From the NCBI GenBank assembly GCA_038373885.1, contig JAWZYV010010204.1, positions 248,001 to 312,000 of the forward strand: DNA of 64,000 bases, written 5' to 3'. The first letter of the stretch is position 1. Each line of letters opens with the position of its first letter. Below are positions 8,566 through 52,497 of this stretch, piece after piece. The notes below the pieces were generated by a model that did no database searches, was not told the origin of the DNA, and saw only the letters and a program-made list of their open reading frames with translations. The position numbers and the translations under genes were made by a program. This DNA comes from Cheiracanthium punctorium (taxonomy: Eukaryota; Arthropoda; Arachnida; Araneae; Cheiracanthiidae).

Positions 8566-9033
8566 TGCTAGCCTCCCGCGCGTTGTTTTCCCCTCTCCAG
8601 CGTTCATCGAAGGTCGTCGGCGACTTCACTCGCCGCGTGACGTCACGTTTTCTCCCGCGGTTCTTCTTTTCGGTTTTCTCATGAGCCGTGATCGCCGCAG
8701 CATATCTCCATAGTAACGGAGACATTTTGTTTCTGATTGGCCGGTCAGAACTTTGTTTTATGCAAATTAACTGTTGCACATGTGAATTGTAATGTATGTA
8801 TATAATGTGGTTCCTTTTGCCTGTGCGTTATGGCATTTCTATTGCATGCTATTCGATTCTAGCCTCTGTATCTTCTGTGTATGCTAGTTCTTGAAGACGC
8901 TCAGCGAGCGTGAATGTATTTGAACTTTATAATATTTCTTTTAATTAAAGAACTTTTGGTTTCTTAATGATGTCTCATAATTTCAAGTGTTAAATCACCA
9001 CTGCTGGCAAAATCCGAATAATATCTTCTAAGA
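8566..9033 (+). repeat. Copia A 3' LTR
   Basis: It begins TGCTAGCC, ends CTAAGA and has the same length as the 5' LTR. It contains TGACGTCA at 8638-8645 (a consensus CRE/ATF site), ATTGG, ATGCAAAT (8760-8767) and TATATAA (about 8800). These are plausible transcription signals, inferred from motif matches only. Confidence 0.85.
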
Positions 9034-9038
9034 ACTTA

Positions 9039-10280: not shown

Positions 10281-10284
10281 TTAA

Positions 10285-12542: not shown

Positions 12543-12546
12543 TTAA

Positions 12547-13080
12547 TGAAAAATTAACTACTGGACTAAATACTTCGTCATACGTGTCGTTTTTATATTG
12601 CGCAAATCCTTGCGCTACAAGCCTGGCCTTATATTTTACTATCCTATTATTCTCACCACATTTTAAATTATATACCCAGCGGTTCCCTATAATTTACTTA
12701 TCAGGTTTAGGGACTAGTTCCCACACATTGCGTGCATGCATCATCTTTAATTCTTCGGCCATGGCACACTGCCATTTTTCGACTTCCGCAGACGACATAC
12801 ATCCATTATAATTACTGTGAATTTTTATTTCTATATTAAGCGCTTTGGGTTGACAATTGTCCGTTGTTTCATCTAAATTTATTTGATCTGTCACTTTTCC
12901 TGAATAAGTGTTCTTACCACTAAAATCAAACAGATTACTATCAAATTTAATGTTATGCGCTTTACAGTATTTCTCTACCTCATTACCAGATCTTAAACGC
13001 ATATTTTTACCCTCAATGTTATAATAAATATCAACTCGCGTTCCATCCTTTTGTGGAACAGCACGTCTAATCCAAATGAT
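12547..13080 (-). pseudogene. Copia B integrase-RT linker and RT N-terminal part
   Basis: The minus-strand sequence matches copy A 6460-6990: NEVEKYCKAHNIKFD, then KWQCAMAEELKMMHARN and ELVPKP, the start of the copia-type RT domain. It is bounded by the piggyBac-like insert at 12546 and the solo LTR at 13081. Small frame differences occur between 12580 and 12700. Together with 9039-10280 it would form one RT domain. Confidence 0.75.
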
Positions 13081-13085
13081 GTTTT

Positions 13086-13645
13086 TCTTGTGTTAGACTA
13101 CAGAATTGGGTTTTAAAAGAACTACCCATTACAGGTTTAAAAACTAACACTTCTGCAATCTAACATTTAGCAGAGTAAAAGCATTGGCAGTGTAGATTCC
13201 TGCATTTAAACAGACAAGTTTTAGATAAAAGCCTTTTTATTAGCAATATTGATGAATAAATCAAAGGGGAGCAACTGCTCCTCACAGGACAGTCCACACG
13301 ACTGTTTACAACAACAGACATCAGAGAAGAGGCCAAGACTGTCGGTCACATCTTCCTTTTAAACATATAAAATTTACATACTCCGTGCTCGGAAATGAAA
13401 GATGAATGCTAAAAGGAACCAAGGAGAAAAACGAACGCACCAAACCGGCGGGAACCGAACGTTTGCCATGACGCAAGCGTGACGCCATGCATTTCAGCCA
13501 ATGAGAGCAGAAGGTGCGTACAGGCGGCAGAAACAAGTTGGCAACTTGCGGATACGAAAGTAAACAATATTAATGGTACATGTCAAAAGATTAACGACGT
13601 AGCGAGACAGGTATAACTTTAATTGATACAGCTACTTCCCTAACA
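13086..13645 (-). mobile_element. Solo LTR (LTR-G) in copia B integrase-RT linker
   Basis: A TGTTAG...CTAACA unit (13091-13645) is flanked by GTTTT at 13081-13085 and 13646-13650, with five extra bases tcttg at the left. Removing 565 bp (unit, extra bases and one GTTTT) puts the copia frames on either side back in register, which supports these boundaries. AATAAA occurs on the minus strand, so that strand is taken as sense. There is no internal coding region. A second, partial copy forms the left edge of the window. Confidence 0.7.
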
Positions 13646-14640
13646 GTTTTCATCTGGGGGGAGGTTGATTTCACCATGCGTTTGCTCAAGACTGGTTAAA
13701 TCCATATCATTTTTTTGAAAATATACAAATCTTTTATTACTTTTACTGGGTTCCAGTTCGGCTTCCACACACTTAATTCTCTCACTAAATTTAACATTTG
13801 AAGTTTCTATTACTTTATTTTCATTTTTAAGAAATATGCGATAACCTCTAGTATCCGACGCATTCCCTACCATTATGCCGGTTTTTGCTTTTAAACTTAA
13901 TTTATTTCTTAAATTCTTCGGTGTGTTTACATAGGCTGTACAGCCAAACATTTTAAAGTAAGAGACTACTGGTTTTCTACCTGTAAAAAGTTCGAATGGT
14001 GTGTTATCTTTATTTTTATGAAAAATCCGATTCCAAGTGTGTACGAAGCATTGAATTGCTTCGCCCCAAAATTTATTACTTAAACTGCTGGCATGAAGCA
14101 TAGCCCTAACTGCGTTCATCGCTGTTAAGTTAAACCGTTCACTAACACCGTTTTGTTCTGGTGTGTAAGTATTTGTTCTTTCGGCATGAATACCCTCTGT
14201 CAAGAAAATTTTTAAAGTCTTTATTACAAAACTCCATTCCATTATCTGTATGCACATTTACAATTTTTAAATTTAATCGCCATTTCATTCATCTTTGGTA
14301 TTTTTGAAAGCAATAAAAAACTTCAGACTTTTTCTTCAAAGTAAAAACAGTTACGTACCTAGAGTAATCAAGTTAAGAAATATTGGCTACCGTCAAGTGA
14401 CGCAACGGGCAACGGCCCACATACATCAAGATGCAATAATTCAAGCGATTTCGAAGATCTAATATTCGATATAGGTTTAAAGCTCTTCCTTCGCGCTTTA
14501 GCTAGTTTACACGATGTACAAGATTCTTTATTAATTTTTAACGTGGGTAATCCACGAACACTATTATTTTTACTAGTATGCACTAAATAATCCATATTAG
14601 CATGATTAAACCTGTAGTGCCAAAAGGCTAATTCACTGGT
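13646..14640 (-). pseudogene. Copia B integrase
   Basis: Minus strand: the zinc-binding HYRFNHANMDYL / CTSCKLAKARR pair (about 14500-14620), the first aspartate in LHLDVCGPLP (about 14430), then in other frames TDNGMEF-type sequence (about 14240) and the glutamate-bearing NGVSERFN (about 14140), followed by the C-terminal region up to the solo LTR. Two frame changes lie between 14260 and 14400. It is collinear with copy A 5500-6460. It would have inserted the cDNA into the genome; it is inactive because of the frame breaks. Confidence 0.75.
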
Positions 14641-15629
14641 TGTTTCAGTTGACAGATTACATTTTATTTTCTACCTTTTTGCCGTCCGTTTTATCTTTAA
14701 TGTAGGGCGAGGGTTTAAAAAAATAAAGACCATTGGTACGTTTGGCATAAAAAAATCGCTTCACCTGCTTTATTATATACCCAAATTTTACCGTTTGTAC
14801 CTACAAACTTTGCACCAGCACTTTCTACCTTCAAACCAGATATCAAATTCCTCCGCAATTTCGGCAAGTACATCACATCCGTCAGCTTTATAACATGTAC
14901 TTTTCCATTAAGACGTACACCAAACTCTACAGTTCCAACACCTTCTACCTCACTTTCTAAGTTTCCTATAGCGAGAGACATTGTGGTGTTTTGTACTGGT
15001 TTATATGTGGAAAATAAACTTTTGTTGTTGCAGAAATGATTAGATGCACCTGTATCAAATACCCAAATTTTGTTTATTACTGCATTAGGTTTACTAGCTT
15101 CAACATTAAGGAGATTTTTGTTTACCTTAACATCACAATAATTACTAGATTTTACTTTTCGTTTTGTACCACTTTTATTTCTATTAAAACGAAGCTTTAC
15201 TCTGCAATTGGCTATTACATCTCCGTATTTTTTACACCGGAAGCAGAGACCTAACTTGTTGGGTTTTTCGTTTTTATGTTTTTGCGTGTCCTCAACAGTT
15301 GTGGATAACAAAGTACTCTCGTAATTACTTGTGTCCCCCTTCACTTGACGAATGCGTCCCTCCTCTACAAGGAGTTCGTCAAGATTTTCTGAAAGGTATA
15401 GTCTTTCTCTGGCCTACGATAAATCGTTTGTACTATGTTCTGAAAGTTAGAATCTAAATATCGAATGAGCTGAAATCCCTGATATAACTCCTCAACAGGG
15501 TGACCTAAGTCGCGTAATTTAAGTACTGTTTTCTTTACTTTAGCAGCAAATAATCCAATTCCTTCTTCAGCAACATAGCGATGCGAGAAAAATTCATCTA
15601 AAAGTTGTATAGTTCTAGCTCTAGAAGAG
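14641..15629 (-). pseudogene. Copia B gag C-terminus and protease
   Basis: Minus strand from the BEL insertion site. It continues Gag (SSRARTIQLLDE-type sequence, two frame changes near 15340-15400), then the zinc knuckle, which reads CFRCKKYGDVIANC: the third metal ligand, histidine in copy A, is aspartate here. The protease DTGASNHFCNN motif (about 15030-15060) and the following strand-rich region (LISGLKVESAGAKF) are in one frame of 209 codons (14715-15344). The N-terminal half of Gag is on the far side of the BEL element at 21943-22253. Confidence 0.75.
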
Positions 15630-15634
15630 GGTTC

Positions 15635-15912
15635 TATTGGAGTAATTCCTTCTAAACTTCCTTAGTGACTGTGATTTGTCTATAAATGTTCATAAGCATT
15701 CATTCTGGATTAATTTATTATGCTTAATTTACATTTGTACATTTATGACACAGGTTTTAAAGGTTTAGCCGTGTTATTCGGTCGAACATGCCTGTCCGTC
15801 ATTACATCTGGTTCTATCTCTAGTGAAACATACTGAAGTAAACATACTCACCAGTGGCGCTGCAATCGCGCAGAAATTTTCTCTTCCAGGGGGAAAGTCA
15901 CAAGATTCTACA
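15635..15912 (-). repeat. BEL 3' LTR
   Basis: On the minus strand it starts TGTAGAATC and ends CTCCAATA. It is near-identical to 21665-21942. The terminal dinucleotides are TG...TA rather than TG...CA. Confidence 0.88.
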
Positions 15913-16511: not shown

Positions 16512-16705
16512 CAGAGCCTGATTATGACCAACAGGGGCCCCGGGCATTGGTGAATTTGGGGGCCCCCATCTATGAAATTTGTTTTATTTTTCATATAATT
16601 TTGATATGAAAAAGAATATTTCAGAATAACATTCGATATTGGGGGCCCTTTCGAGCCGGGGCCCTGGGCAAAGTCCCGATTTGCCCATGCGATAATAAGG
16701 CTCTG
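16512..16705. mobile_element. 194-bp hAT-like MITE in BEL integrase
   Basis: gtgattgg is repeated exactly on both sides (16504-16511, 16706-16713). The ends are CAGAGCCTGATTAT and, on the other strand, CAGAGCCTTATTAT. The interior is rich in GGGGCCC. Because the BEL element itself is young, this MITE must have moved even more recently. A related sequence is at 51018-51186. Confidence 0.88.
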
Positions 16706-19581
16706 GTGATTGGTCGGGAATTAATTATAGATTCTATCTCTGTTAATATGGTTTCTAGTTCTGCGACAGATAGGGACGATTTTCCGATAACTTTGCGTAG
16801 GATTGTTTTGACTGATCTTACTAATCTCTCCCAGAATCCGCCCCACCAGGGAGCTCTTTCCACTATAAATTTCCAATTTATACCTGTTTTTCCGAAAAAG
16901 TCGCTTACTTCCGATGAATTGATGTAATTCCATATCTCTTTTAAATCAAGGTTTGATCGCTTAAACGTCTTCGCGTTATCGGAGTAGATAGTTGAACACA
17001 ATCCACGTCTGGCGATGAATCTTCGTAAAGCTAATAAGAACGTTTCGGTGGTCAAATTAGATACTAATTCTAAGTGAATTGCACGTGTGACTGCGCATGT
17101 ACACAGTAATATATAATGCTTCCTGTTATCATCTCTTGTAAAGAGGGGACCAGCGAAATCGATTCCTGTGATCTCGAATGGAAAGGATTTCTGGATCCTG
17201 TCCGCTGACAGAGGTGCAATCACTTGTGTACCAGAACGTATTCTAAATCGTTTGCAAGTTAAGCATTTGTTCAAGATAGATTTAACTACTTGTCTTCCTC
17301 TAAGGATCCAAAATTTACTTCTTGCTTCCGCCAAAGTATCAGCTACTCCCGAATGATAGACCTTTAAATGAGCGTTCATTACTAGTAATTCGGTGTATTT
17401 TGACTTGCTGGGAATTATCCATGGATGTTTTTCGTGTAATTCCAGATCGGAGTTTTGCAGTCTTCCGCCTAAGCTTATAATTTCATTCGAATCTAAAATT
17501 GGATTTAAATTGTATAGACATGATGACTTGTCAACTGAATTTCCTTCTTTCAATGAGTTAATCTCACTTTTAAAATGTATTGACTGAGTGTGTGTTACCC
17601 AATAAATTTCAGCGATACGCAGTTCATCTGCAGTTAATGGACCGGATTTTTTGGTATCATTTCTCGCATTGTAAACAAATCTGTTGATCCAAGCAGTGAT
17701 TCGATACATCTTTGACAGTTTACTGTAGTTTTCAATATTTAGGATTGGGTCATCATTAGGTATGGTGTTGCAGACTAACTGATGGCAGGTTTCTATTTTG
17801 ACCGTTTTCTTTTCTGCTAGCACTTCTTCTGATGTTACTTTATCTGCTATGCTTGATGGCCAAAGTTCTTCCGGTAATGCCAACCAGTCTGGTCCTCTGA
17901 ACCACCTGTTACTGTTCTTCAATCTTTGAACTGATTCACCTCTTGTGAGCAAATCTGCAGGGTTTTCTTTTCCTTTACAGTAGTTCCAGTTCTGTGGATC
18001 AGAATTCGTTTTTATTTCGATGACCCTGTTAGCTACAAATGGTTTCCATTCTCTCGAAGTGCCTTTAATCCAGTGCAGAACTATTGACGAATCTGTGTAA
18101 AGATAGATGTTGCATTTCTCTATTTTGAAAATATCTTCAAGGTATTTGGCAATTCTAGCTGCAATTACTGCTCCTAGGAGTTCCAACCTGGGTACGGTCA
18201 GTCGTTTCAATGGGGCGACTCGCGCCTTTGACATTACAAAAGTAGTATTAAATCCCTTCGCATCCCTTTGCCTAAAGTACGCGATTGCGCCGTAAGCCCT
18301 GGGACTGGCGTCTGAGAACACGTGAAGTTGTAGTGCATCCGTATTCATTTGAACTTTGTCTGGAAAGTATCTTCTCTCGACAGAAAGATCTTTAATATCT
18401 TCAATTTCGGAGTACCAGCTGACCCACTTTTCTTGCAATTCTTGAGGAAGTTTCTCATCCCATCTTGTTCCTCTTTCCCACATATCTTGAAGGAGACATT
18501 TTACTCTGATTGTATATGGCGATAAAATTCCCAATGGGTCGAAGATTTTAGCTACTGTTTGTAAAATGAACCGTTTTGTGTTTTTAGCATTCTTAATTGA
18601 GTCTAAGAGGGGATTAATCTCTAATTGTAAAACATCTAATTTGTCATCCCACTTTATTCCTAACACCTTAGATGGCTCTTCATTATCTTCGATCTCCATG
18701 TTATTTTCAGACCAGAGTTTGCTTAAATCTTTGGAATTTGTTCTCCATTTTCTTAATTTCATTCCTGCATCCATTAATAGTTTATCTGCCTTCACTGACA
18801 AATTGTACGCTTCACTGGCATCTTTACCTCCAAAGAATAAATCATCAACGTATAAATTTTTGTCTAACATTTCAACTATCGTTGGTAATTCTGTTTTGTA
18901 TCTTTGTATGTGGTGTTTAATCGTTGCAGCTAAGAGGAAAGGGCTTGAAGTAACTCCAAACGGAACCCTCCTGAATCGGAAAATTTTAATGTTGTTTGTG
19001 TCAAATAAATCTCTATCTGTCCAGAGAAAACGAAGATAATCTCTATCAGAAGGCGCAACTGCAATCTGCAAAAATGCCTTCTCAATGTCCGATGAAAATG
19101 CAATTTTATGTTCTCGAAACTTTAAAATTAAAGTCAATAAATTAGGGTTTAAATTCGGTCCTTGATGTAAATATTCATTTAGGGATTTTTGTTTATTTTC
19201 TTTGGAAGATACATCGTATACAATTCTAACTTTGCTTGTGGTTTTATTTTTTCTAACAACTGCAGAGTGAGGCATATAGTAACAGTTTTCCAATTTTATT
19301 TCAGCATCCTGACATTCCTCTATAATCCCTTCCCTAAGTTGTTCTGAAATAACATTCTTATAATTTTCATGCAGCCAAGTATCTTCTTTTAATCTGTATA
19401 TTAGCTTATTAAACCGACGTTTTGCGAGGTCAAAATTATTATGAGGTACTTGTGCCTCATCCTTCCACGGTAATTTTACCTCGTATCTTCCCTTCTCATA
19501 TTTTATATTTTCCTCAAAGTTTTTTAAGACTTCGTTAGACGCGCATAAATTTTCCTTTTCATTTATGCCTAAAGAATCCAA
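16706..19581 (-). pseudogene. BEL pol: RT, RNase H, integrase
   Basis: About 960 codons are open. Reverse transcriptase occupies roughly residues 100-350, with SSDIEKAFLQI and the catalytic YVDDLFFGG near residue 240. RNase H follows (FSDASPRAYGA, YTDSSIVLHWI, then NPADLLTRG). The integrase has the HHCC zinc domain (about residue 720-790), the first aspartate in GIDFAGPLF, the second in IYSDNAKTF and the APWWGGFWERLVRSVK block that bears the glutamate. The frame runs into the MITE at 16705. It is the same frame as the upstream gag-protease, from which a single TGA (19594-19596) separates it. The methionine at 19581 is probably internal to one polyprotein. Confidence 0.88.
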
Positions 19582-19593
19582 CTCAAAGAACTT

Positions 19594-21070
19594 TCAGAGT
19601 TCATTACATATTTCACTTGATTCTGCTTCGCAACGCATAAACAGAGAATTAATACACTGCTCTGGGGTGTTTATATCTTTCTCAGCCTGTCCCATGACTG
19701 TATATCCAAATACCGTTTCGAGTAGAAGCAGATTGTTTATATTTTGAAGCTTTCCACATGCCACTCGAGCGAAATTATCTATGCCTATTAGAATTCCGAT
19801 CTGACCTTGACCGCGCTTTTCGTAAGCCAGGGGGTAATTTTTCTCTCTCATCAGCTCTCTTGTTTTTTCATTTGGAATTGCCACTGGCGCCGTTGAAATA
19901 ATTTCGGTCTGAAGTGCTTCGATTTCAATCTCCGCTGAGCTCGTGAGATTTCGCAGTAGCAATTTAACTACTTTGTAGGATTTTTTAATTGGTTTAGAAG
20001 AACCAAATGGATAAACACTCAAATTTTCTTCACGAATTATAGGGAGTTTTAGCTCTTTAACTATATTTTCCGAAACGAAACTTCTTTGAGACCCAGTATC
20101 CAACAAAATACGCGCTATTTTCGATTTAGAATTACAATGAATTAATACGTCACAAGTTAATAACAACATATCACTTTCTACTTTCGGTTCGTGTTGATTG
20201 TGAAACATGGTAGTTATTGTAGTTTCGTTGTCGGGTTTAGATTCTAATGTGTCACAGATAGACTTGTGGTGTTTTTTGTTACATTTGGGACATAGTTCAG
20301 CTCTGGAGCGACAGGATTTCACAATATGGGACCTTTTTAAACAGAAATAGCATAAACCCTTACGTTTTAGAATGTTTTTCCTTTCGGATATCTTAAATTT
20401 AGTACAATCATTACTTGTGTGTGTTTCGTTTTCACAATATACACAGGTTTCTCTGGATATGGCGTTCAGTGCAGCTGTAGGGGTTTGAAAGGGTTTAGGT
20501 TTATATTTATGATAGTTATATGAGTTTTCTCTGTTTTTATAGTTGGATATTTTATTGTCGGTATTTTCTCTTGGATTAATTTCGGAATTGTTCGGTTTTG
20601 TCAGATTTTCCGTTCTTTCTCTATTTTCTATTTCCCTTTTAAGGAATGTCATCAAATCCGTTATTTTCTCACTTTCGTTTTGTTTTTCCTGACGGGCAAA
20701 CTCTAAAGCCAAGTCTTTTGGGATTGTTTTTATTAACACCGGAAATAGTAAACATCCATATGTATTGGTTTCAATTCCAAGACTTTCGAGTCCGCGAATT
20801 TGTATTAAACATTCATCGTAAAGTTTTCTTAGACCTTTTAGATCGCTGGACTTTCTAACCGGATTTAAATTAAGTAATTTGTTCATATGAGCATCGATTA
20901 TAATTTCTTTTTTACCGAACCGACTTTCTAAGATGTCTACAGCCTTTTCGTAATTTTCCGAAGTCAAACTTAATCCTTGTATAGCTGTTGCTGCATCGGA
21001 CATCAGAACAGATTTTAGATAATTGAACTTCTCTACATTATTGAGAGTTTTTCTCATGAAATGCTGATTT
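19594..21070 (-). pseudogene. BEL gag and protease
   Basis: Minus strand. It begins within the DUF1759-type Gag capsid region (NNVEKFNYLKSVLMSDAA), then has zinc knuckles CVYCENETHTSNDC and CYFCLKRSHIVKSC and a third, irregular one (CPKCNKKHHKSIC). The aspartic protease (DUF1758-type) follows with LLDTGSQRSFVSE. The frame ends at a TGA (19594) with pol continuing in the same frame. A frameshift near 21050-21070 separates it from the earlier Gag sequence. The apparent start at 21123 reads out-of-frame sequence before that shift. Confidence 0.82.
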
Positions 21071-21537
21071 ATATTGGGCCCAAAAGGAAGGCCAAGAACA
21101 TATATCTCCGTCAAATTGCTCAATGTTCAGTTTTGGTAGTTTAATGCTAGCTTTTCCTGGGGCGTTACTGTTATTAACGTATCCTGTGTTGGAAGTATTT
21201 ACTCCGTTACTTGAGGAGATCATTGCCGGTTGCGTTTTTTCGTTTATGTTTTGTAAACATTTGTTGCTTCTAACTTTGATGCTAATTATTTTTTCGCGAT
21301 ACTATCGCGAGTTTCTATCTCAGTCTCTAACTCTGTAATTTTTATAACAGATTCTATGTCAGTATCAAGTGCAATAAGACTTTTTTCTTTTTCCATTAAC
21401 TGAGCCAATTGTTCTTCAATTGTCAAGGAGTCTATGTCCTCTGTGACTTTTTTAATTTCGGTTTCCAGTTTGTTTATAATTTTAGTTGTTACTGTTCGCA
21501 ATATAGCTCGTGTTTTCTTAAGCTTCTCAAGATCCAT
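21038..21537 (-). pseudogene. BEL gag N-terminus (frameshifted)
   Basis: The minus-strand frame from 21537 (MDLEKLKKTRAIL) runs to 21286 and is a predicted coiled coil rich in E, K and L, as is usual at the start of BEL Gag. A second frame, 21223-21038, carries KLPKLNIEQFDGDICSWPSF, the conserved entry to the capsid domain. So there are two frame changes before the long frame at 21070. The start at 21537 lies about 130 bp after the 5' LTR, a normal leader length. Confidence 0.75.
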
Positions 21538-21664: not shown

Positions 21665-21942
21665 TATTGGAGTAATTCCTTCTAAACTTCCTTAGTGACT
21701 GTGATTTGTCTATAAATGTTCATAAGCATTCATTCTGGATTAATTTATTATGCTTAATTTACATTTGTACATTTATGACACAGGTTTTAAAGGTTTAGCC
21801 GTGTTATTCGGTCGAACATGCCTGTCCGTCATTACATCTGGTTCTATCTCTAGTGAAACATACTGAAGTAAACATACTCACCAGTGGTGCTGCAATCGCG
21901 CAGAAATTTCCTCTTCCAGGGGGAAAGTCACAAGATTCTACA
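21665..21942 (-). repeat. BEL 5' LTR
   Basis: It is near-identical to 15635-15912, with two substitutions seen. It is bounded by GGTTC at 21943-21947 and the primer site at about 21640-21661. Confidence 0.88.
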
Positions 21943-22253
21943 GGTTCGAAATGCTTTTTAAGCGCGTCCCATGCAACATCACCCGAATCTACCGTTGATA
22001 TAAGTGAGCGAAGATTAGGGCTAACCCCCAAATATATCATCGAATATGCCCTCACTTTACGCAAATTGTAATCTAGTATTTCCTTTTGTGTAGCTTTATC
22101 ATCTAAAGCGGGTTCAGTTTTATCAATAAATTTCCAGACTCCCCTTTCCATTAACAAAACCTTCATGTCATCTTTCCAGGTGTTCCAGTTCGATGCATTA
22201 ATCATCTCTATTTGGTTGCGACTTTCGTGAATATGGGAGCACATTATTACCAC
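21943..22253 (-). pseudogene. Copia B gag N-terminal part
   Basis: The minus-strand frame from ATG 22253 (MVIMCSHIHESRNQIEM) through NWNTWKDDMKVLL and DVAWDALKKHFEP to the BEL insertion. It is the copia Gag capsid start and matches copy A 4167-4480. Codons after 21943 belong to the BEL LTR. The protein continues at 15629. Confidence 0.82.
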
Positions 22254-22787
22254 TTTACAACACTAATTTACAATAAGTATAATAAACACATGCATATGAT
22301 GAAATTTTAAATATAACTTAACACTCTGGAAAGTCCTACTTCATACTGATGAAACCGAAACATTACTGCAAGGAAAAGTTCCATAGTCTGCTAAAAAGCT
22401 CCTTTAAAGCTTGGCTGAAACGCCGATATGCTCGGCCCCCGTCGAAGCAACTCAATAAACGTCCATTTCCACGCAAGGAATAACACGCCAGCTTGAAAAA
22501 ACACTAAACTGGGGAATCGAAAGCTTGACTGGTGACGGAACTCTTGAAGGCACAAGTGGATAATACTTGTAGAATACGACAGCAAGGATGATGACAAAAA
22601 AACACTAGAGCCGGAACACTTGCTTCATAACGCCGCTACACTCCTCGGCGAAGACACCTCAGTAACGCCGCACCATGGAAAACACCGTCCGGGACTTGAG
22701 TTGAAAATGACAATGCACGTAAGTTGTCATTATTAAAAGTCAGCAATGAGCAGTTTTACAATGGGATTGCTCGGCCCATAACCAAAA
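22254..22787 (-). other. Copia B 5' leader and primer site
   Basis: It matches copy A 2211-2690 plus 4109-4166 and contains the empty site of the pogo-like element (a single TA in ttatattt, near 22315). The minus-strand sequence GGTTATGGGCCGAGC at 22769-22783 is the primer site. Short frames here are leader sequence and not genes. Confidence 0.75.
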
Positions 22788-23027
22788 TCTTAGCAGAAAT
22801 TACATGCATTTTGCCAGCAGTGGTGATTTAACACTTGAAATGATGAGACATCATTAGAAAACTACAAACTCTTTAATTAAAAGAAATATCGTAAAATTTA
22901 AATACATTCACGCTCGCTGAGCGCCTTACAGGGCTAGCATACACAGAAGACATGGAAGCTAGAATAGAATAGAATAAGCATAACTCGCAGGCAAAAGAAA
23001 CACATTATATACGTACATTACATTACA

Positions 23028-26000
23028 CAGGCATGAAAATCTTCCGCTTTTCGGCGGATTTCCGCTTTTTTGTTTTTTTTGGAAGACCTCCACTTTCCGA
23101 AAATGTTTTAAAACCTTTCCGCTTTTTGAAAAAAAAAAACAAAAACAAAAAAAAACAGTGATTACCGAACCTAAAGCAAAACATAGCGGACATAGCAGAG
23201 TAACAAGAGGACGATAATGCGTGCCTGGGATGTACGTTTTCACTGCATCTCGCACTGCGCCTAGACTAAAGTCAGCTAGAGTGCAATGTTACTGATTTCC
23301 TGAGTTGGTAAATTCAAAACTTAGTTCAGAGGGGCAAATTCTTATTTTAGATCTTCGATGTTTCGAAAGGCATCTGATACATAATTATGTACTTGGCGAA
23401 CTACTACACAACAATAATTATCTATCGAGACCTTTCGCCACTGGAAAACCGTTGTCGGTGAGCTATTGTTACTCGCGACGTGTTTTTATTGCTGTTTTGC
23501 GCACTTGATGAATCTATAAATTTTTTTCACGGACACGTACCAGCTTAACTGATACTTCTATTGTGGATTGTTGAGAAAATTGCAGATTTATCGAATATAT
23601 TAGAAAACGTGGATTGAAAACGAAATGTTTGTGGTCATTTTCGGATCCAAAAATTTGCTTGGTTTTGGAAAAATTGTCGGCCGAACGAGAACTTCCAGAC
23701 ATTTTATGAATGCTAAACTGGAATTTTTGTTTAAATAAAGCAAACTGACGGTCTACACGACAAATAAAACTTGTATAAAAGTGCAGCTTTTAGTAATGGT
23801 ATTTAAAATATAAATCTTGTCGTATTCCTTTAGGTCTTCAACATGCAAAGGAAGTAAAATAATTTATGGTAGTTTAAATATACTTTTCTTAAATAAATAA
23901 ATTATTAATAATAATTCCAATAAATAAATACTTCGATATTTATAGCTATTAAAATGTACACGTCTTAATTTTATGCTGAATAAAAGAATAATGCTTTTTT
24001 AAAATGTGAGTTAATGTTAAGAAATCCGTAAGAAAAAGAAAACCAAAATTTGCAGAGTTTTTTTTTTTTTTAAACAGTTATGCGGATTTTACTAAAAATA
24101 TGTACCGTAACTTCGTGAAAAGTTAACTAATGGTAAGACCACGGACGGATTAAAGGGATTTGGGGGGGGGGGGGGAGCGATTACTCCTCCGCTACAGGAA
24201 AAAGAAATTCTATTTTACTTCCATAAACTAGACAAATTTCAAGTAACCGACCATAAAATTGCATTAATCCGTTCTTAGGCAAGATGTATCGCCTCCTTAA
24301 ATAAATAAAAAGATTACTTTTATTAATCATTTATGAAAATGTACATAACCAAGCAAAAAAAAAAGAAAAGAAAAGATCATTACTAATTTTCATGGGTCAA
24401 TCCACATAATACTTAATTTTAAACAACATTCAATTGATACTCTCTCTGAGTTAAAAGTTAACGAAATATGAAATTTAAAAATGCTCTTTATTAAAAATTC
24501 GCGTTCGCAATTGGGAAAAAAAAAAGAAAAAAATTGAGGCGACTAGGCAACACAAGTCATGTCTTAACGTCTCAGCAGAATTCGCTCTCTTGCTTTATTA
24601 GCCAGCTGGCTGAGTGAAGACAAAACAATAACAACCTTCTCGATGTTGACGTGGCGTTGGTACCTCGGTTTGTGAAGGCCCGTTTTCCCCCGTATTACAT
24701 AAATTATTATTATTTTTTTTTTTAAAGCACATTCAAAATTTGGTTCTTCTGCATATCGAACGGAAATATTTCTAAAATGGTTTGACGAAGCTTGTCCGCA
24801 CCTGTAACTACGTCGATGCTTTAAATGACATAATGGGGGGGAAAAAATTCAAATGCTCCCTGCATGCCGACGTGCCGTCACTTCAAGTTCATCTATGTGC
24901 TTTATTTTCTACAGAAATAAATTTGTTAGCATCGGCTTCACTGGAGCTTGCGCGCTAACTACAGATCAAAAAGCAAGATCAATATACTAAATTTTTTTGC
25001 AAAAGAAATTTATTTCAGCCAGATAGTCCGTGTCCTGGAAAAAAATCCCTTTTTGACATGCATAGTCTGCGGACTATACTAGCGAAATTATGGTAACTAA
25101 CTATCCCCGATCTCCGGGTTCCATATTTGCCAACTGAACTTCAATCTATTTGCAGCCTTTTGGTAAATGAATAATTTTAAAAACAAGATGTAAGACAGAG
25201 TTTTTAATACTCTATTGTTAAATTAAAATTTAAGGCATTTTAGTAACTCAACAGAAAAGTATTATTTTCCCCATAATATGTTTATTGATTTCTGAAACAT
25301 TTTCACTTCAATTTTAAAATCAGGAAAATCGCTATTTCGTTTTATTCTCGTGCAGTTTTTTCTTTGGTAATTATTTTTACAGTTAATTTTAAAAGCATAA
25401 TCTTGTGAGTTAGTATTTTGCAGCTAATATAGGAAGGAGCAGAACATAGGTCCCCGTCAAAAGTTCCACTTCTGTGTGCTGATGTGCTGCAAGACTGTTA
25501 AGATTCTAAAATTTTACCTGAGAAAATATTTAGACATTTATTAAAGAATTATTCTTTTTCCAATAAAACAAGAAAACTTCACTTTTATTTTATCATTTGA
25601 ATGCTTATTTTAGAAAATTTCCAATGCCATATGTATAATTTTTCATTCCATTTCTGATCAAAATTAAAAAAAAAAGAAAAAAAAAGATAGGTCTTAAAAT
25701 TTTTGAGAATCAATTTTTTATTTTATTTTCATATCAAAAGAATAATCTGAAATTTGAATGTGAGACTTATGATTTGTTTTGATCTAGGATTTTACGATAT
25801 AGTTTAAGATAATTATTTTAAATAATTATAGCCTGTTTTCTTTTAATAAATATTGTATATCTAAAACTGATTATTAAACATTTACAGTGCATAATTATTT
25901 TCTTCAGGATCACAGTCAATTTGTTTGTGGTTGAAATTTAAATGGTAGAAATTGTTTAGTACACCATTTAGTTTAACAGTAGTTGAATTTAAGCTCACAC

Positions 26001-27337: not shown

Positions 27338-27837
27338 AATGCCCCTCCTTCCCTATATGTGCATATGTATTAAAAATCGTGTTCTAAATCTGAATAGTAA
27401 TTTTAAAAATTGTGTTTGATTCCATTTTATCTTTAGTAGGCATATTCATTGCATTACTGCGTGACACCGTGGTATTGTAAGATTTTCAAAATTTGCATGT
27501 TGGCAGGTATGCAGATGGCGTCCTGAGGAATGTTTCTCCATTCCATGTCAACCATTTGCCACAGTTCGTCTGATCTTGCCACTAACCCGTTCAGAAGCCG
27601 TTCAATGCCCCTCCTTCCCTATATGTGCATATGTATTAAAAATAGTGTTCTAAATCTGAATAGTAATTTTAAAAATTGTGTTTGATTCCATTTTATCTTT
27701 AGTAGGCATATTCATTGCATTACTGCGTGACACCGTGGTATTGTAAGATTTTCAAAAATTGCATGTTGGCAGGTATGCAGATGGCGTCCTGAGGAATGTT
27801 TCTCCATTCCATGTCAACCATTTGCCACAGTTCGTCT
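27338..27837. repeat. 266-bp-period direct duplication with inverted junction
   Basis: 27338-27571 and 27604-27837 are 234-bp copies with two mismatches. The spacer contains a 20-bp segment (27578-27597) whose exact reverse complement follows the second copy (27836-27855). The duplicated block includes the 3' end of the Tc1-like fossil. Confidence 0.9.
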
Positions 27838-43307: not shown

Positions 43308-43777
43308 ATAGTCCAGTCATCTTAGTAGTTTAACCTCGGAATTTGAGATACCCTGCTATAAACTTGTATAAACTTTTATTTTGACATCCTAAAACTTGTC
43401 TAAAAACCTGCGTATGGTAGGGTGTCCGCATCTGTCAAAATTTAAGGTCAAAGGTCACAAAAATCGATTTTTTCCACATTTTTCGCAAATATCTCGTTTC
43501 CTATGGGGTTTACGCTATTTGTATGTAATAATAATATTGTAGAGGATAAAATTCTCTACAACTTTTGTACCAAAAGTTTTTTTATATGTTGAATCGTTTT
43601 CAAGATAGTTCAATACTGCATGCTCACTACTTTCTATGTAGAGTACCATTTAAGGTCAACCGGTAGTCCAGATCAAAAACACGTGTCATAAGGTTATAAA
43701 TTATTGATAAATATATACTTATAAATAATTTTAATTTTTTTGTAAATATTACATTATAATTAATAACTTTTTTCATT
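43308..43777. repeat. Left long inverted repeat of the nuclease element
   Basis: Shared blocks with the right repeat include GGTAGGGTGTCCGCATCTG, TTTGACATCCTAAAACTTGT-type sequence, TTGTAGAGGATAAAATTCTC and TAAATATTACATTATAATTA. Divergence is about 10% by eye. Confidence 0.7.
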
Positions 43778-43957
43778 ACGTATTTATTTTTAATTAAGTA
43801 TCAATTTATTTAATCACACTTACCTGCTCATGTACTTATAAAATTATTAAGTTAAATATTAAATTATACTTTAATTTTAATCAAAGTTATACTAATTACT
43901 TAAGTAAAAAGAAAAGAAATAAATGAATAATAATTATAAGAACTAAAAGTTCTAATT

Positions 43958-45117
43958 TTAACTTTCTTCTTCTTCATCATCATTGTCTTCCGGTTGCTGC
44001 AGAATTTCAGCTTCCTCTTCATTATCATCTTCAAAGACATTTGTCTCCAGGTCTTTCATTATTTCAGGTTCAAACGTTCCATCTTCATTGGCATCACTCT
44101 GAAATGGCAAAGCATTAAGACAAGCTTGCCCATTACACTGGCCATTAGCTAAATACCACTGCAACTCAGATTTCCTGTGTCCACATTGCGAACCACAACC
44201 ATTCTTGCAGTTGTAGAATATTGTGCTTAGCAATTCCTTTGGAGCAGGTGGTGAAATTGTCGTGATAGGCTCCAGGAATTCGTTACACATTGTCCAACCC
44301 CATTCCTGGAGTTCCAAATCATTCCCTAACCAAGTTTGAACTTGATAATAAATACGATTAAAATGTTGGTGAGCTGCTACACTTGTTGGTGGAATATTTG
44401 ATAACTGCACAGGTTTATTTAGTTTTGTTGACTTGACATACTGGGCGTAACGAAGATGATCGATACTGTCCACAGATTTCGGAACATTATAGACTGCCAA
44501 CAAGGTTTCATTCCATTCTCAAATAATCCTTGTACCAGAAAGTTTTCTTCTTCAAATGCTGCAGCAAATTGATCCAAATTCGGTAGTTTCTCAAATGTTC
44601 TTAAAAAAGTTTTTCCCTTTTTTTTAAAGAGTGCAGACGTTGTATCACATCCACTTAATGCGTGCAGAAACAAAATGTGTCTTTTAGAATTAGGATATTT
44701 ATCAAAGCTTTTGGAGGAGTATATTTCAGTTTTTACATTCCCTTTGTCAACTTTTTAAAAGAAAATTTCTTGTTAGTAAGATAGAGTACGCCTAATTAAA
44801 ATGATAAGTAAATCTATATCTTCTCCTATCATAACTGCTGTTTTTTCATGTTTCGATTCTTCAATACCTGTTTCAATGATATAAACATCCGCATCATCTC
44901 TGTTTTGTAGAGATGTTAACAGTTTGTAATTTCTCACTAAGCATATTAATTAGCTTCTCTTTATTACTTCGATTTGATAGGAATTTTTCTTGGCTAATTG
45001 GTACAACCATTGTATCGTCGAAACAGACGTATGTTTTTGAACGTGCAGCAGTCCTTCTCAGCTGCTCTATTGCTTTCGTGAAAGAATTTAAAAGCTTACG
45101 GTTTTTAAAGATGTACT
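43958..45117 (-). pseudogene. FEN/XPG-like (PIN-fold) nuclease-type protein of unknown family
   Basis: Minus strand, frames joined by at least three shifts (near 44895, 44760, 44505). From the N-terminal side: YVCFDDTMVVPISQEKFLSN (a likely first acidic pair), RDDADVYIIETGIEES, VMIGEDIDLLIILI, then HILFLHALSGCDTTSALFKK. FEN1, EXO1 and XPG nucleases share an E/S-D-x-D-L-L motif and an LSGCDY motif that bear active-site aspartates, so these two segments in this order suggest that fold. A long C-terminal part (VQTWLGNDLELQEWGW, PAPKELLSTIFYNC) ends in a cysteine- and histidine-rich cluster (CKNGCGSQCGHRK, CNGQACLN) and an acidic tail. I know similar unnamed proteins are repeated in arthropod genomes. 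Function is inferred, not shown. Confidence 0.55.
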
Positions 45118-45330
45118 AACTTATTTTCTACTTAAAATGTAATTAGCGTAAATGAGAATATAATTAAAATGTAGTTAAAGCATTTCTTTTAATAATTTTT
45201 TAATTGCATGAATAGGTTATAAGTGTTATTGAATAGATAGATTACTAATTAATGAAAAAAGTTATTAATTATAATGTAATATTTACAGAAAAATTAATTA
45301 TTTATAAGTATACATTTATCAATAATTTAT

Positions 45331-45778
45331 AGGGATCGACCGATAGTATCGGCGCCGATACCTCCTATTTTTTTAGGTATCGGTATCGGTTCTTTCGATT
45401 CTAAAAGTATCGGGAAAGTATCGGTTTCTGTTGCTTTCATCCATTTTCGCCGATACTTTTCAACCGATACTTCGCTTTTCAGAAGAAAAACACGCAGGCG
45501 CATCACCATTCTAGAATCTTTATTTTGGTAATGAGATGAGAGGTGTCGTTTCATTGGCACATTTGTTTGCACGAGTGTTTACGAACTGTGTTAATTCTAA
45601 CCATCGCTTAATGGATGTCGTATCACCAAGTGTGGTCGAAATTATGGACGAAGAATCGTTAGATGACAGTTTAACTAGACAATCGTCTATTCGTCTAAAT
45701 TATTTTGAATTGGTGCTCAACACTAAAAACACCACCTGCAAGGATTGCAAAAAACAAATGTCGAGAGGTAGGCTATAA
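45331..45778 (+). mobile_element. 5' fragment of a hAT element with BED zinc finger
   Basis: The left end AGGGATCGACCGATA and the repeated TATCGGTATCGG motifs look like a hAT terminus. Inside, the frame 45642-45775 reads MDEESLDDSLTRQSSIRLNY and FELVLNTKNTTCKDCKKQMS, the start of a BED-type zinc finger (C-x2-C after an aromatic F) used in DNA binding. The frame stops just after a GTAGG that could be a splice donor. The rest of the transposase and the right terminus are missing, so this is a truncated copy. It abuts the right inner repeat of the nuclease element exactly. Confidence 0.55.
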
Positions 45779-45914
45779 TGTTATCAGTTTTATAAACGTT
45801 TATTTTCTCACTGTGTGGACTCGTAAGAGAGTTAATTCATATATATACACACTCAAGTGAATCTCCCTATAACGACTGAAAAAACACTCAAAATACTGGT
45901 GTTAAACGATAAAA

Positions 45915-46085
45915 TAAATAAAAAACTTTGTAAAAAACACACATAAGAAGTAAAAGGAAAGAGGATACGCGTTTCGTTCAAAAATTGTTTTGAACTTCCT
46001 TCCGTTCAAAAACAATTTTTGAACGAAACGCGTATCCTCTTTCCTTTTACTTCTTATGTGTGTTTTTTACAAAGTTTTTTATTTA
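45915..46085. repeat. Near-perfect palindrome, arms of about 81 bp
   Basis: 45915-45995 and 46004-46085 are reverse complements with one extra base in the right arm, separated by 8 bases (ttccttcc). The arms include CGCGTTTCGTTCAAAAATTG. A transcript would fold into a long hairpin. Confidence 0.92.
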
Positions 46086-46176
46086 CTTTCTCCCTATAAC
46101 GAATTCGCTCGTTAAAAAATTCTCTCGAATTCCAGTTAAAAAATCGCTATAGAGAAAATTTCGTTGTACAGAGATA

Positions 46177-46374
46177 AGAGCTTTTTGCAGTTATTTCAGC
46201 AAATATTACAAACATTTTAATTAATTCGCTATTTAAAAGTATTAAATTATGACATTAAAAATAAATTGGTATTTATTATAAATTTGTTAAACTTACGGTT
46301 TCTTACTTTTCATTGTATAAATGAAATGTTCAAAAGTAAAGACAATCCACGAATTTCGAGAATAAAATATGTAA
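46177..46374. repeat. 198-bp direct repeat, left copy
   Basis: It is identical at every position to 50620-50817. The pair brackets the hAT element at 46384-50619. Confidence 0.95.
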
Positions 46375-46948
46375 TGCACTTACCAGGGTTCGTACACCTC
46401 CTGGAAATCCTTAAAAACTCCTGGATTTCGATTTAAAAAATTAAGGGCCCTGGAAAACTCCTGGATTTTACTAATTTTTCTGTAGACTCCTGAAATTTCA
46501 GTACTGACTCCTGGAAATATTGTTTATTTTAGTTTTCTTTCTAGTATTTAAAGTGCAAAAAAAATTTTCGTAAGTGCGATCTGCTGAAAATTTTTTTCCG
46601 ACTCGTGTTTCAAGTGTAATAATCTGCCGCCATGTTTATTGACGTTCCTGCCTTGGACTTAGTAATCACTTCGCTTCGCTGTAGATATTCGTCCCTGCTC
46701 TCCCCATATCCAATAATATCGTTCCTGAACTAGCCTCGTTGGTGTTCTCAAACTCTCTTAACGCTTACGTCACTGCGAAAGTATCTCGTGATTGGTGTAT
46801 GAGCTATATGCTCTTATCTCTTCTTTGGTACACGGATCACGGATACGTGCTTGTTCTGTTTGCGGCGGTGTATTGGAAATAATCGTTCGCGTGTGACAGT
46901 AAAATTTTAAACCATCCTGAGATTTTCATCCTTTTCAATTGCCTAAAG

Positions 46949-49112
46949 ATGCCAGGTGGAAAATGCGTTTTTAATGATGCTTGGTTAGAAAAGGAGGAAT
47001 ATAAAATGTGGCTCCGACGATCATTGCAAAGTTTTGAAGCAAAATGTTGTTTATGCGATAAGTGTTTTGATATTTCGAATATGGGAGAAGCTGCAATCAA
47101 AAGTCACTGTTAAGGGAAAAAACATGAATCGATCGTAACTCTACAAAAAAGAGACAATCGAACTTAATTATTTTGACAGCGGAAGTTCACCGACAGTTTC
47201 ATCCATTCAGCAGAATCTTTAGACTGTAAATCCATCTTCACTTGATAATTCAATAATGAAAAACAATGCCCAGCTGAAAGCAGAAATACTTTGGACTTTA
47301 AAAGTGATAAGCAGTTCCTATTCTTTTAGATCATGTGAAAAATCCAAATTACTGTTTCAAAGGATGTTCCCGGACAGTGAAATAGCTAAAACTTTCTCTT
47401 GTGGGGAATCAAAGGCTGCTTATTTAACAGTTTTTGGCCTTAAGCCATACTTTCTGGATTTGTTAAAAGAAAAAGCAAGTAAAGAGGATGCATTTGCTTT
47501 ACTTTTTGATGAGTCTTAATATGGAAAACCAGTGTAAACAGTTGGACTGTTTAATAAGGTTTTGGAATGAACAAAAAGTTTCATCGCGATATTATTCATC
47601 GGACTTTTTGGGCCAAGCAACGGCAGATGTGCTATATGAAAAAATTTCTGAAAAATATATGACATTGGGATTTAGCAAGCTATTACAGCTGTCGGTGTAT
47701 GGTCCTAATGTGAATTGGAGTGTCTGTGAAAAAATAAATGCTCATCTTAAGCAGAATACTAATACACTATTAGTAAATGTGGGTAGTTGCAGCTTACACA
47801 TTTTGCACAATGCATATCGTGCAGGGTGCACAGCATTTCCAGAAGTGGAAGAAATGGCTTCATCACTACACCAGTTTTTTATAAATTCTCCTGCTAGGAG
47901 GGACGATTATTTAACCCTAGATCCTGATGCAAAATATCCTGAAAAACTATATAAGCACAGGTGGCTTGAAAATGTCAGCGTGCTGAAGAGTGTTAGAAAT
48001 CTTACCCACCATGAAAAAGTACTGTGAAAAAGTTAGAGAAAAAATTCCCTAATCCAAAAACAAAAAGTTTTAAAAACATAGAAACATGCTTAAAAGATAA
48101 ATTATTTGAAGTCAAATGCAATTTTTTCATTTATATTGCAGGAGAAATAGAGCCGTATTTAACCCTCTATCAAACAGATTGGCCAATGCTACCTTTTTTA
48201 GCCGGTGATTTAAAAATACTTTTAAAATCACTCCTAAAAAGGTTTTTAAAAGATGAACTGTTTGAAGGCTTGTCTGTAGTAAAGTTGTTAAATATTGATA
48301 TAGAAGATGAAAATAATTATAAAGATGCATCAGAAATTGATGTAGGGTTTGTAGCAAAAAAAAAAAAAAAAAAAAACGATTAAAGATTTAACTAAGAAAA
48401 AGTCTATATCTGATAAAGAGGCAATGCTGTTCTACTTGAATTGTAGACTTTTTTTTACAAAACTTAAGAGGGCACTTATCTTTTAACTTTTTGGTTAAGT
48501 ATGATGTGGTTAATAATATTTCATGTCTTGATCCCAGATTACTAATTAAAAACAGAGAGAATAACAAAGTCAAGTTTAACAATCTGTTATTGCATTTAAC
48601 AAATTGTAAAAAAATCAATGACAATATTTGTGATAATATTCTTAAGGAATATGAATTATTCATCGAAGAGTTTCACTCAATGGATATTGAAGTACAGTTT
48701 AAAAGCTGTTTAGAAAATTATTTTGATCCGGCTGTAGACCGACTAGATGTGTTTTTTCAGTTTCTTAGCCAAAAATGTAAATTATAAGAATTTGTGGAGT
48801 ATCATAAAACTACTATTGTTATTATCTCATGGGCAGGCTTCTGTGGAAAGAGGATTTTCTGCAAATAAAAGGCTGATGGTGGAGAATCTATCTGAGCAGA
48901 CTATTATAGCAAAGCGTTTTATAGACGACCACATTAAAAGTGTTGGTGGATTGGAAAGTGTTGATATTACAAAAAAATTATTGATATCCGCTGCAGGAGC
49001 AAGGCAGAAGTATTCGTTATATCTAGAAGATAGAAAAAAAGTTGTTAAAGTAACAGAGAAGAGGAAATTAGTTTTGGATAATTTAGATGAATTTAAAAAA
49101 AAAGATGTATAG
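46949..49112 (+). pseudogene. hAT-like transposase, broken
   Basis: The first segment (ATG 46949 to stop 47113) is a BED-like zinc finger: CVFNDAWLEKEEY, CCLCDKCFDISNMGEAAIKSH. The catalytic region follows in frames 47256-47519 and 47488-48027: FSCGESKAAYLTVFGLKPYF, DAFALLFDES, RYYSSDFLGQATADVLYE, VYGPNVNWSVCEKINAHL, CSLHILHNAYRAGC, SPARRDDYLTL and HRWLENVSV. 48024-48480 continues with a helical region, and the C-terminal dimerisation segment SHGQASVERGFSANKRLMVE lies at 48830-48900. Frameshifts near 47500, 48025, 48380 and 48780 inactivate it. The family is a hAT-like group common in invertebrates; it is assigned from the C-terminal E-R-x-F-S motif. Confidence 0.75.
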
Positions 49113-49129
49113 AGAAAGACATTGAAGAG

Positions 49130-50440
49130 TTAAGCAAATCATCAATTACTTTTGCTGAACAAGCAGAAGAAACAGGAAAATTATCTTTAATTTCGAAATC
49201 TAATACTCTCCGACGGAGGGCGGAAGAGAAAAAAAATCATCTCAAAAAATTAGATTTAGAGATAGAGGAAAAATGTTTAGCTTTAAAAGATATAGATAGT
49301 TAATACTAATTGCCTTTTGAATAATTATTATACTTTGAATACTTTTGCTTTTGAATAATTTGCTTGTTACATTCATTGCAATAAATATTTATTGACTTTA
49401 AAAAGAAATGTTTTATGTTTCTATCTGGTCTAGTCAATTTTTTTAAATACATGAAATGATTGTAAAATTTACACTAGTAATGCTACTAATTTAGTTTTTC
49501 CCCCCTGTACTTTTAGTTTGGCACACAACATAGCAAAAAAAGATTTAAAAAAGGCTTTGCATTATATTCTAGAATATATAAAAATATGTTGTTATATTGC
49601 GTGGAGATCATACTTAGGGACATTTATGGGACTATATTCTGTATGCAGTGCTGTTTACATTTTGATGTTTGTTTACATGTTTGGTTCTGGCACCATCGTG
49701 GGCGATGCTCAGCGGGAGTGAAATACCCTGCCAATGGTTATTAGGCTGGCAACCATAAAAAAGTGTACATCGTCAGTTTGGGAATTTGAAATTGTTTTAT
49801 GTTATGGATGGAAGGGAATGAAATGTGTTTTGTTATTGTATGAAAAGAAAGTGTGTGTTTTTTAGAAATAGGGTTTGAATATAAAGCTAAATAAAAGAAA
49901 GCATGTTGGTTTTACGTTATCGGCCGGTGTTAGTGTTTGTTAGAAATACAGTGTCAATATAAAAGTAAATAAAAGAAAGCATGCTGGTGTTACGTTATAA
50001 GCCGGTGGGTGTTAGGGACATTTCTGAGTAGTTAATTAAAAAATAAATAAAGGTAAGTGCTTTTTTTAACGAATCTTTGCAATTTATAAGGTTTTTAATG
50101 TGAATTTTAAATTGATGTTTTTATGTTATCATAACTGCTATTTATGTACTATTCTAGTCATACTGACTTTATATGAGGTGTACAACTAGGTTGTTTAATC
50201 CACCGATGTTGTTTTGAGTTGAAAACGGGCCAGTGTTTGTTTGCCCAGTTTACATTAGCTGTACAACAAAGTTGCTTAATCCACTATAGTTAAAAAACGG
50301 TCGACCGTTTGCTCATTTTAAATTGCCTGTTACTGAATTTGCTGATGTTTTTTAGCTTAAATATGGACGGTGTATTTTGTTTTAATGTTTTTGTTAGTGG
50401 AATATTGTGCAATTTTAATGTGTTAAAATACTTTGCTGAT
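49130..50440 (+). other. 3' part of the hAT-like element, no further gene
   Basis: It holds a short lysine/glutamate-rich continuation to about 49300, then AT-rich sequence with a repeated AAATAAAAGAAAGCATG motif (about 49890 and 49970) and a 22-bp inverted repeat near 50455-50503 (CGAGAGTCACTGG / CCAGCGACTCTCG). Confidence 0.45.
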
Positions 50441-50619
50441 CGTGCAAATTGGTTGGCGAGAGTCACTGGGGCTTGGTAACCACCAAGCTCCAGCGACTCT
50501 CGCCTTGTTTACATGGGGTGTGCACCGGCTTGTATGATTTTACCCATTTATGTATACTCCTGGAAAAATTATATTTTCTCCTGGAAAACTCCTTAAAAAC
50601 TCCTGGAATTCATACTTCC

Positions 50620-50817
50620 AGAGCTTTTTGCAGTTATTTCAGCAAATATTACAAACATTTTAATTAATTCGCTATTTAAAAGTATTAAATTATGACATTA
50701 AAAATAAATTGGTATTTATTATAAATTTGTTAAACTTACGGTTTCTTACTTTTCATTGTATAAATGAAATGTTCAAAAGTAAAGACAATCCACGAATTTC
50801 GAGAATAAAATATGTAA
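50620..50817. repeat. 198-bp direct repeat, right copy
   Basis: Identical to 46177-46374. It continues into unique Tigger-like sequence at 50818, which suggests it is the original position. Confidence 0.95.
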
Positions 50818-51017
50818 ACTTACGTTTATTTTACTTCAAAATTCCGTTATTTTACATTGTTTTGCATTCTGGGATTTTAAATTTTCATAAAAATATTCAC
50901 ATTTAAAAGTCCGCTGAAAATAGAATGAGGCACATTTTCTTCCATTTGGAACCTCTTTTTAATGGTTTTGAAAGTTTGAAGCATTAAAGTTTGATGTGGT
51001 TTTGGTCATGAAGCGCA

Positions 51018-51186
51018 TGGCCTTTTGGGAAATCGGGACTTTGCCCAGGGCCCCCAATTTTAAATGTTTTTCCTGAAATATTCTTTTTTATATAAAAATT
51101 TTATAAAAAATATAACAATTTTCATAGATTAGGGGCCCCCAAATCTATCAATGCCTGGTGCCCCTGTTGAACATAATCGGGCGCTG
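51018..51186. mobile_element. MITE related to the 194-bp MITE in BEL
   Basis: It shares AAATCGGGACTTTGCCCAGG, the poly-G/GGGCCCC blocks and the end motif (CAGCGCCCGATTATG on the minus strand) with 16512-16705. The left end is degenerate and no target duplication is clear. Confidence 0.6.
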
Positions 51187-51479
51187 GTGAGGTGTCTTCA
51201 TTATCGGAGTGAGTTTCACTTTCCTGACCTCCATTTTTATCAACTGTTACTCTTCCACTAAGGGGTCTGTTCGAAAATTAAAATTTTCTTCAAAACTAAC
51301 AAAAAAAAAAAAAAAAAATCAAAGGTAAATCTGAAATATTCGCTATGGGAAGATAACCTCTTTATTATATGGAGAATGTTTATAGTGTTATTTAAGCCTG
51401 AAAGCTACGTTTCTATGAAAAATTTCATTATAGGGAGAAATTCATTGTAAGGAGACTTTGTTATAATGAGATTCTACTG

Positions 51480-52150
51480 TATATATAGGCTTTTGATATC
51501 GTTGGAGAAAGTCTAGCTCCAGGTATAGATTTCACGCTTAAGAGACATGCTTTAAATTTTTATTTAAAAAAAATTGGCACAAGGACATCCCTATGCAAAT
51601 ATCTTTCCCTCGTTTAAATTTTTTCCCTATGCAAATATCTATCATAGTCTCGCACTAACTGGCAGATATAAAAAGGCATCACAAAGTTACTTTTAGCTGT
51701 TCTGTCTCTGAAAGCTCCTCCCGCAGCTTCTGTGATGCGTGTTAAGAGATTGAGCCATGAACCATATGGTTCAACTGATGTGATTCAATGAGAACCGGAT
51801 CGGGGATCCTTGTGATCCGTGCTGATGTATCCAGACGATTCAGTGTGATGTGTTTTTTGAATCTGAATAGATTGCTGCTGGCGACTTGTCTTCTAGAAAT
51901 CTTGTTTTTTTGTGCTACTAAATGAATGCTGTTTAATGTGCTGTGTCTTCATCGTCTCATGTGACCTGTGTAAGTCTACCATAGTCATCCTTGTTCTAAT
52001 AAACTACAGTAAAGGTACCCACTTGTCTTTCTTGTCTAAAACACATATTCAAACACAAGAACTTCTACTGTGCAACTCAAGTTAAATGAATTTCAACTCT
52101 GCCTAAACTTTATTCTACAGACAAAAATCAAGTAACTATTTAATCAGTCA
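51480..52150 (+). repeat. Possible solo LTR
   Basis: It has a TATA-like ATATAAAAAGG at about 51667-51677, GC-rich sequence downstream, and AATAAA at about 51998-52003, in the order expected for U3-R of an LTR. The ends and target duplication were not found, so this is only a suggestion. Confidence 0.3.
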
Positions 52151-52159
52151 ATGACTTCC

Positions 52160-52497
52160 AATTTTGAAATAATTTGTTTGTTGAATAGTTTAATATAATT
52201 TTTCAACAACGTACAAAAAAACTTTTGGCATAAAAGTTGTAGAGAATTTTATCCTCTACAATATTGGTAATACATACAAATAGCGTAAACCCATAGGAAA
52301 TGAGATATTTGCAAACAATTTAGAAAAAATCTATTTTTCTGACCTTTGACCGTAAATTTTGACAGATGCGGACACCCTACCATTTGCAGGTTTTCAGACA
52401 AGTTTTAGGATGTCAAAATAAGTTTATACAAGTTTATAGCTGGGTATCTCGAATTCAGAGATTCTTACCTTATTTTGACTAAGATAACTGGACTATA
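52160..52497. repeat. Right long inverted repeat of the nuclease element, outer part
   Basis: Reverse complement of about 43308-43640; the inner part is at 45251-45330. Confidence 0.7.

Follow-up and report, generated by a model that had tools for sequence, protein, structure and literature searches.

Nuclease Gene Remnant and Its Fold

The stretch of DNA analyzed here (the window) comprises 64,000 nucleotides of the spider Cheiracanthium punctorium (contig JAWZYV010010204.1, positions 248,001 to 312,000). Its region 43308–52497 carries terminal inverted repeats (TIRs) and, between them, the remnant of a FEN/XPG-type nuclease gene with a Cys-rich end on the minus strand (43991–45076). Analysis of the gene by tblastn, six-frame reading, and a stop count revealed that it matches only residues 276–641 of the 650-aa relative P0001, spread over three frames, and that it contains two in-frame stops as well as frame breaks. 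The GEDIDLL and LSGCD motifs and the Cys-rich end are present in the minus-strand frames, as the first-pass annotation of this DNA had read them. The first 275 residues of P0001, including the active-site aspartates of VIDGG and VFDGY, have no counterpart.

A profile search of the PDB returned three matches at E ≤ 10, every one of them Exonuclease 1, with a best E of only 0.017. The best 50 rows of a Foldseek search against the PDB were all FEN/XPG/EXO1/Rad2 or XRN/Rat1 nucleases, and the best 50 rows of the VIA structure list all belonged to the FEN/XPG group; these fold matches bear on the nuclease region of the relatives and not on other parts of the proteins. Together, the Exonuclease 1 profile matches and the clear fold matches bear out the original FEN/XPG-type reading. 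The acidic cluster implied by that reading is present in the family, where the FEN fold carries the acidic active-site set, and the broken window copy lacks two of its residues. With ten relatives as queries, Pfam yielded nothing above the curated cut-offs; the weaker matches included XPG_N (two proteins, E 0.12), PIN_4, and NYN_YacP alongside unrelated names. Neither of the two window gene pieces had any match.

The family shares its fold with EXO1, FEN1, XPG, and GEN1, Exonuclease 1 being the sole PDB profile match, and has the acidic residues in the same order, judging, for the nuclease side, from the EXO1 alignment and the established layout of these enzymes. Identity is 12–18% in the structural alignments listed, and unlike these nucleases the family carries additional parts, a conserved region at the N-terminus and a Cys-rich end, and lies within a transposon. 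No relatives of the protein turned up when viral contigs and prokaryote genomes were scanned, and neither of two TIR patterns matched in the viral contigs.

Structure of the Terminal Inverted Repeats

Self-comparison of the window disclosed inverted arms at 43335–43591 and 52460–52207 (257 bp, 90.7% identity, E 3.5e-93), and the outermost 19 bases (43308–43326 and 52496–52478) pair at 94.7%. A second inverted pair, 43695–43778 and 45250–45331, is 95% identical and immediately flanks the nuclease gene. The two pairs together are one repeat of ~470 bp with a split right arm. The left TIR, on the 3' side of the gene, is whole (43309–43777; terminus TAGTCCAGTCATCTT), and the right TIR consists of an inner part (45250–45331) and an outer part (52207–52495, ending ...CTGGACTA, as read from the self-comparison and the junctions), with ~6.9 kb of other sequence in between. 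The right side lacks a counterpart for about 103 bp of the left arm (43592–43694). Comparison of the ends of 16 elements placed the terminus, TAGTCCAG, at base 43309, because the preceding base differs among copies. Thus, the inverted repeats that the first-pass annotation saw flanking the gene are real, with a right arm that is interrupted and a terminus that shifts to 43309. Since the right arm is discontinuous, the supposed 9.2-kb one-gene element is an element of ~2.5 kb plus inserted DNA.

The window alone, with its two nested inverted pairs, could also be read as two elements, an outer non-coding TIR element (43309–52495) and an inner gene-bearing one with 84-bp repeats (43695–45331). 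Elsewhere in the genome, however, the whole collinear 470-bp unit at both ends brackets the gene, and the inner arm of the window ends where the other DNA starts. This reading, which we regard as extremely improbable, was dropped because the collinear arms of the other loci contradict it.

Each TIR arm also contains the near-palindrome TGTAGAGRATWWWATYCTCTACA, at 43538–43560 and 52238–52260; 100 shuffles of the window gave a mean of 0 matches.

Genome Copies and Target-Site Duplications

The left TIR (query 43308–43777) was searched against the genome of the window (2.53 Gb, 15,171 contigs). Of the 41 rows obtained, one is the window, 39 are further near-full-length matches, and one is a short, partial match. 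The best 40 of 174 candidates were scored; the counts given here are therefore lower bounds and are skewed to copies resembling the window's left TIR. Nearly all of the 39 matches extend from query base 1–3 to 466–470, in agreement with the repeat length of ~470 bp given at first pass; two end at 452 and 457. They correspond to 36 elements, the sequences of all of which were examined. In 35 of the 36 loci both TIRs are present and bracket the gene, in support of the proposal that places the gene inside a TIR element, and the remaining locus (L040) has a single TIR, with the gene not found. A probe from the N-terminal part of a longer relative (P0027 residues 41–375) matched at none of the 36.

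The outermost ends were readable at both sides in 27 of the 36 loci. The target-site duplication that had been suggested as a check across copies was found there: 3 bp in 19 loci, 4 bp in two, and none in six. As a chance control, the flanks were re-paired 2000 times, which gave a mean of 1.5 loci (maximum 6) with a 3-bp duplication and 0.2 (maximum 3) with a 4-bp duplication. The 3-bp duplications are the only single class to exceed chance. Duplications of 5 or 8 bp occurred in none of the 27 loci, a difference from hAT elements, whose target duplications are 8 bp.

Deletion Classes, Decay, and Longer Relatives

The first residue matched in the 35 copies and the window falls into classes near 114 (12 copies), 145 (17), and 275 (7), and 29 of these 36 begin exactly at 114 (11), 145 (14), or 275 (4). 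Within each class the sequence ahead of the start is common, except in L035, which differs further upstream. Copies of classes 114 and 275 (L013, L018–L020, L045; L014–L016) and a longer copy, C8574, have a common 5' leader up to the breakpoint, as if the deletions had used one fixed left end. C8574 carries a full left TIR at 88.5%. Its gene sequence, which contains an in-frame stop and a frame break, reaches from ahead of P0001 residue 1 to the end of the first stretch at about residue 401. Three more places in the genome, from a search that gave 121 matches, match the same upstream part (P0027 residues 282–390). The TIR-bracketed copies look like internally deleted derivatives.

Stops are present in all 36 counted gene copies, 1 to 12 in each, and pairwise medians are 0.66–0.78 for the ratio of nonsynonymous to synonymous divergence (dN/dS) and 0.16–0.31 for dS. 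The stops and the divergence fit long-standing decay of copies whose shortening preceded their spread.

Another genome copy, C9746, contains one in-frame stop and reads, in order, QYVADNAD...NTLDGNNTLHIMG, IVTFDQPLY, and GGFHLLMSFLG; its identity to P0021 is 52% across residues 2–158. N-terminal matches of this kind, in a search that gave 113 matches, lie at C9746 (44.9k) and C8401 (108k). The part that follows, with D(M/I)xIEQ, is joined to the FEN domain in P0027, P0084, P0085, P0106, and the C8574 copy. The upstream region may have a DDE-like layout. The earlier statement that no known transposase domain is present holds for Pfam, in which no transposase model matches, and less well for the longer relatives with their putative DDE-like layout.

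Non-autonomous derivatives usually lose most of their coding sequence. It is odd, then, that 35 of the 36 loci, all chosen by their TIRs, retain all or most of the nuclease half. This retention and the common leader may reflect few founders, a bias of the search, or a 3' half that matters for movement. We consider it unlikely that the nuclease–Cys half is more than a passenger and that the N-terminally shortened FEN-bearing elements were amplified repeatedly because the FEN product, or sequence within it, aids their movement, whether by assisting a transposase supplied in trans or by moving the element itself. It is even less probable that the FEN-only elements are autonomous, the FEN/XPG and Cys-rich protein itself excising and inserting the element through its flap nuclease. 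The FEN half in 35 loci alongside no match of the N-terminal probe would agree with such autonomy, as would the recurring classes, which mean that shortened FEN-bearing forms were amplified, and dN/dS medians below 1. It is opposed by the stops in every counted copy and by the longer form with the same left TIR (C8574). Moreover, copies starting at residue 275 lack two FEN-core aspartates, yet several of them exist, and strand joining is not known for FEN-type enzymes.

Probable Assignment to AcademX and Proposed Mechanism

The AcademX nuclease is XPG-type, and a Cys8 zinc finger is present. AcademX is a lineage of Academ DNA transposons, which reportedly go back to Kapitonov and Jurka (2010) and Kojima (2020). 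Academ is a superfamily of DNA transposons in Repbase, according to PMC4455052 and PMC5753468, the latter adding that most superfamilies encode a DDE transposase. According to PMC10045372, AcademX elements have target duplications of 3 or 4 bp and AcademH elements, the other lineage of the superfamily, of 9 or 10 bp, linked to an encoded nuclease and helicase, respectively. A whole-word literature search found no paper joining Academ, XPG, and transposon, and Academ is without mention in PMC8969392, PMC5718144, and PMC7805219.

We filed the spider element under AcademX because the two share the duplication length and the nuclease; a further likeness is the possession of TIRs. The element is thus probably AcademX, placed by description and not by sequence. 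It differs from AcademH in both the encoded enzyme and the duplication length, and the spider copies examined differ from AcademX in the absence of the N-terminal half. Taken together, these observations make it likely that the window copy is a dead, internally deleted, non-autonomous AcademX-like DNA transposon of the cut-and-paste type. The first-pass annotation had raised the prospect of a new transposition type. This was not supported, because nuclease-bearing AcademX transposons with 3–4 bp duplications have been published (PMC10045372), and because the longer relatives have an upstream conserved region and the TIR copies look internally deleted. The element probably represents no new way of transposition.

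Several observations weigh against this interpretation. The 4-bp duplications (two of 27) lie by themselves within chance, and no duplication was seen in six of the 27 loci nor at the window copy. C9746, with its DDE-like residues, was read in its coding part, and C8574 shows no right TIR and no more gene sequence within the next 1900 bases. Pfam gave weak unrelated names and no transposase for the N-terminal pieces, nothing better than E 1.5 was found for this region among PDB sequences, and the structure predicted for this region in the spider protein P0027 had a predicted local distance difference test score (pLDDT) of 43, too poor for use. With dN/dS medians below 1, the FEN half may be under some constraint, at least in source copies. 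Finally, the assignment to AcademX was made by description. This last point, and the lack of a Pfam transposase match, would suit an element that moves by cut and paste, belongs to a different or unnamed superfamily, and came by its FEN nuclease independently of AcademX. We find such an origin improbable, in that AcademX, as described in PMC10045372, agrees both in the length of its duplications and in encoding a nuclease.

For an AcademX-type element, an intact relative would encode one long protein with a DDE-like transposase half, a FEN/XPG flap-nuclease domain, and a Cys-rich (zinc) end. The transposase half could bind the ~470-bp TIRs and would cut and join with a stagger of 3 bp, rarely 4 bp, while the FEN domain might trim 5' flaps or strand ends arising in excision or insertion. 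The N-terminal half is missing from the window copy and from the sister copies read, which were probably mobilized in trans by longer ones. Once inserted, the window copy decayed, and its right TIR became the landing site of other elements. With dozens of copies, recurring deletion classes, and clear target duplications, it becomes easier to ask which half of the AcademX protein is needed. If the FEN half were enough by itself, transposition would have a new enzyme chemistry, but what was observed favors deleted derivatives of a known kind.

Inserted DNA and Other Elements in the Window

The DNA inserted in the right TIR (45332–52206), defined from junctions, open reading frames, and Pfam, has the left edge GGGATCGACCGATA..., which we take to be a hAT-like terminus, followed by hAT-like coding pieces and other repeats. 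The coding pieces are broken and lie in several frames of the plus strand at 47256–49112. Their best Pfam match is Dimer_Tnp_hAT (E 0.15, below the curated cut-off), and they contain HGQASVERGFS, presumably a hAT-like motif. As the DNA that splits the right TIR holds these pieces, the nuclease gene is not alone in 43308–52497, contrary to its initial description as the only gene of the span; they are part of the inserted DNA and not of the TIR element. A perfect 198-bp direct repeat (46177–46374 and 50620–50817) lies on both sides of the hAT-like stretch, its length far exceeding that of a hAT target duplication. The inserted DNA also holds an inverted repeat of 84 nt at 45908–45991 and 46009–46092 (98%, 17-nt loop).

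Elsewhere in the window, the coding sequence of a Copia-type long terminal repeat retrotransposon occupies 4167–8206 (RVT_2, E 9.8e-61), and Copia-related pieces, inverted and rearranged, occur within 9033–15912 and 21665–23029. Frames of a BEL/Pao-type retrotransposon were found on the minus strand at 16621–21123 (Peptidase_A17, E 2.7e-51; DUF1759, E 2.5e-26). A closely spaced direct duplication of 234 bp, 99% identical, is located at 27338–27571 and 27604–27837.
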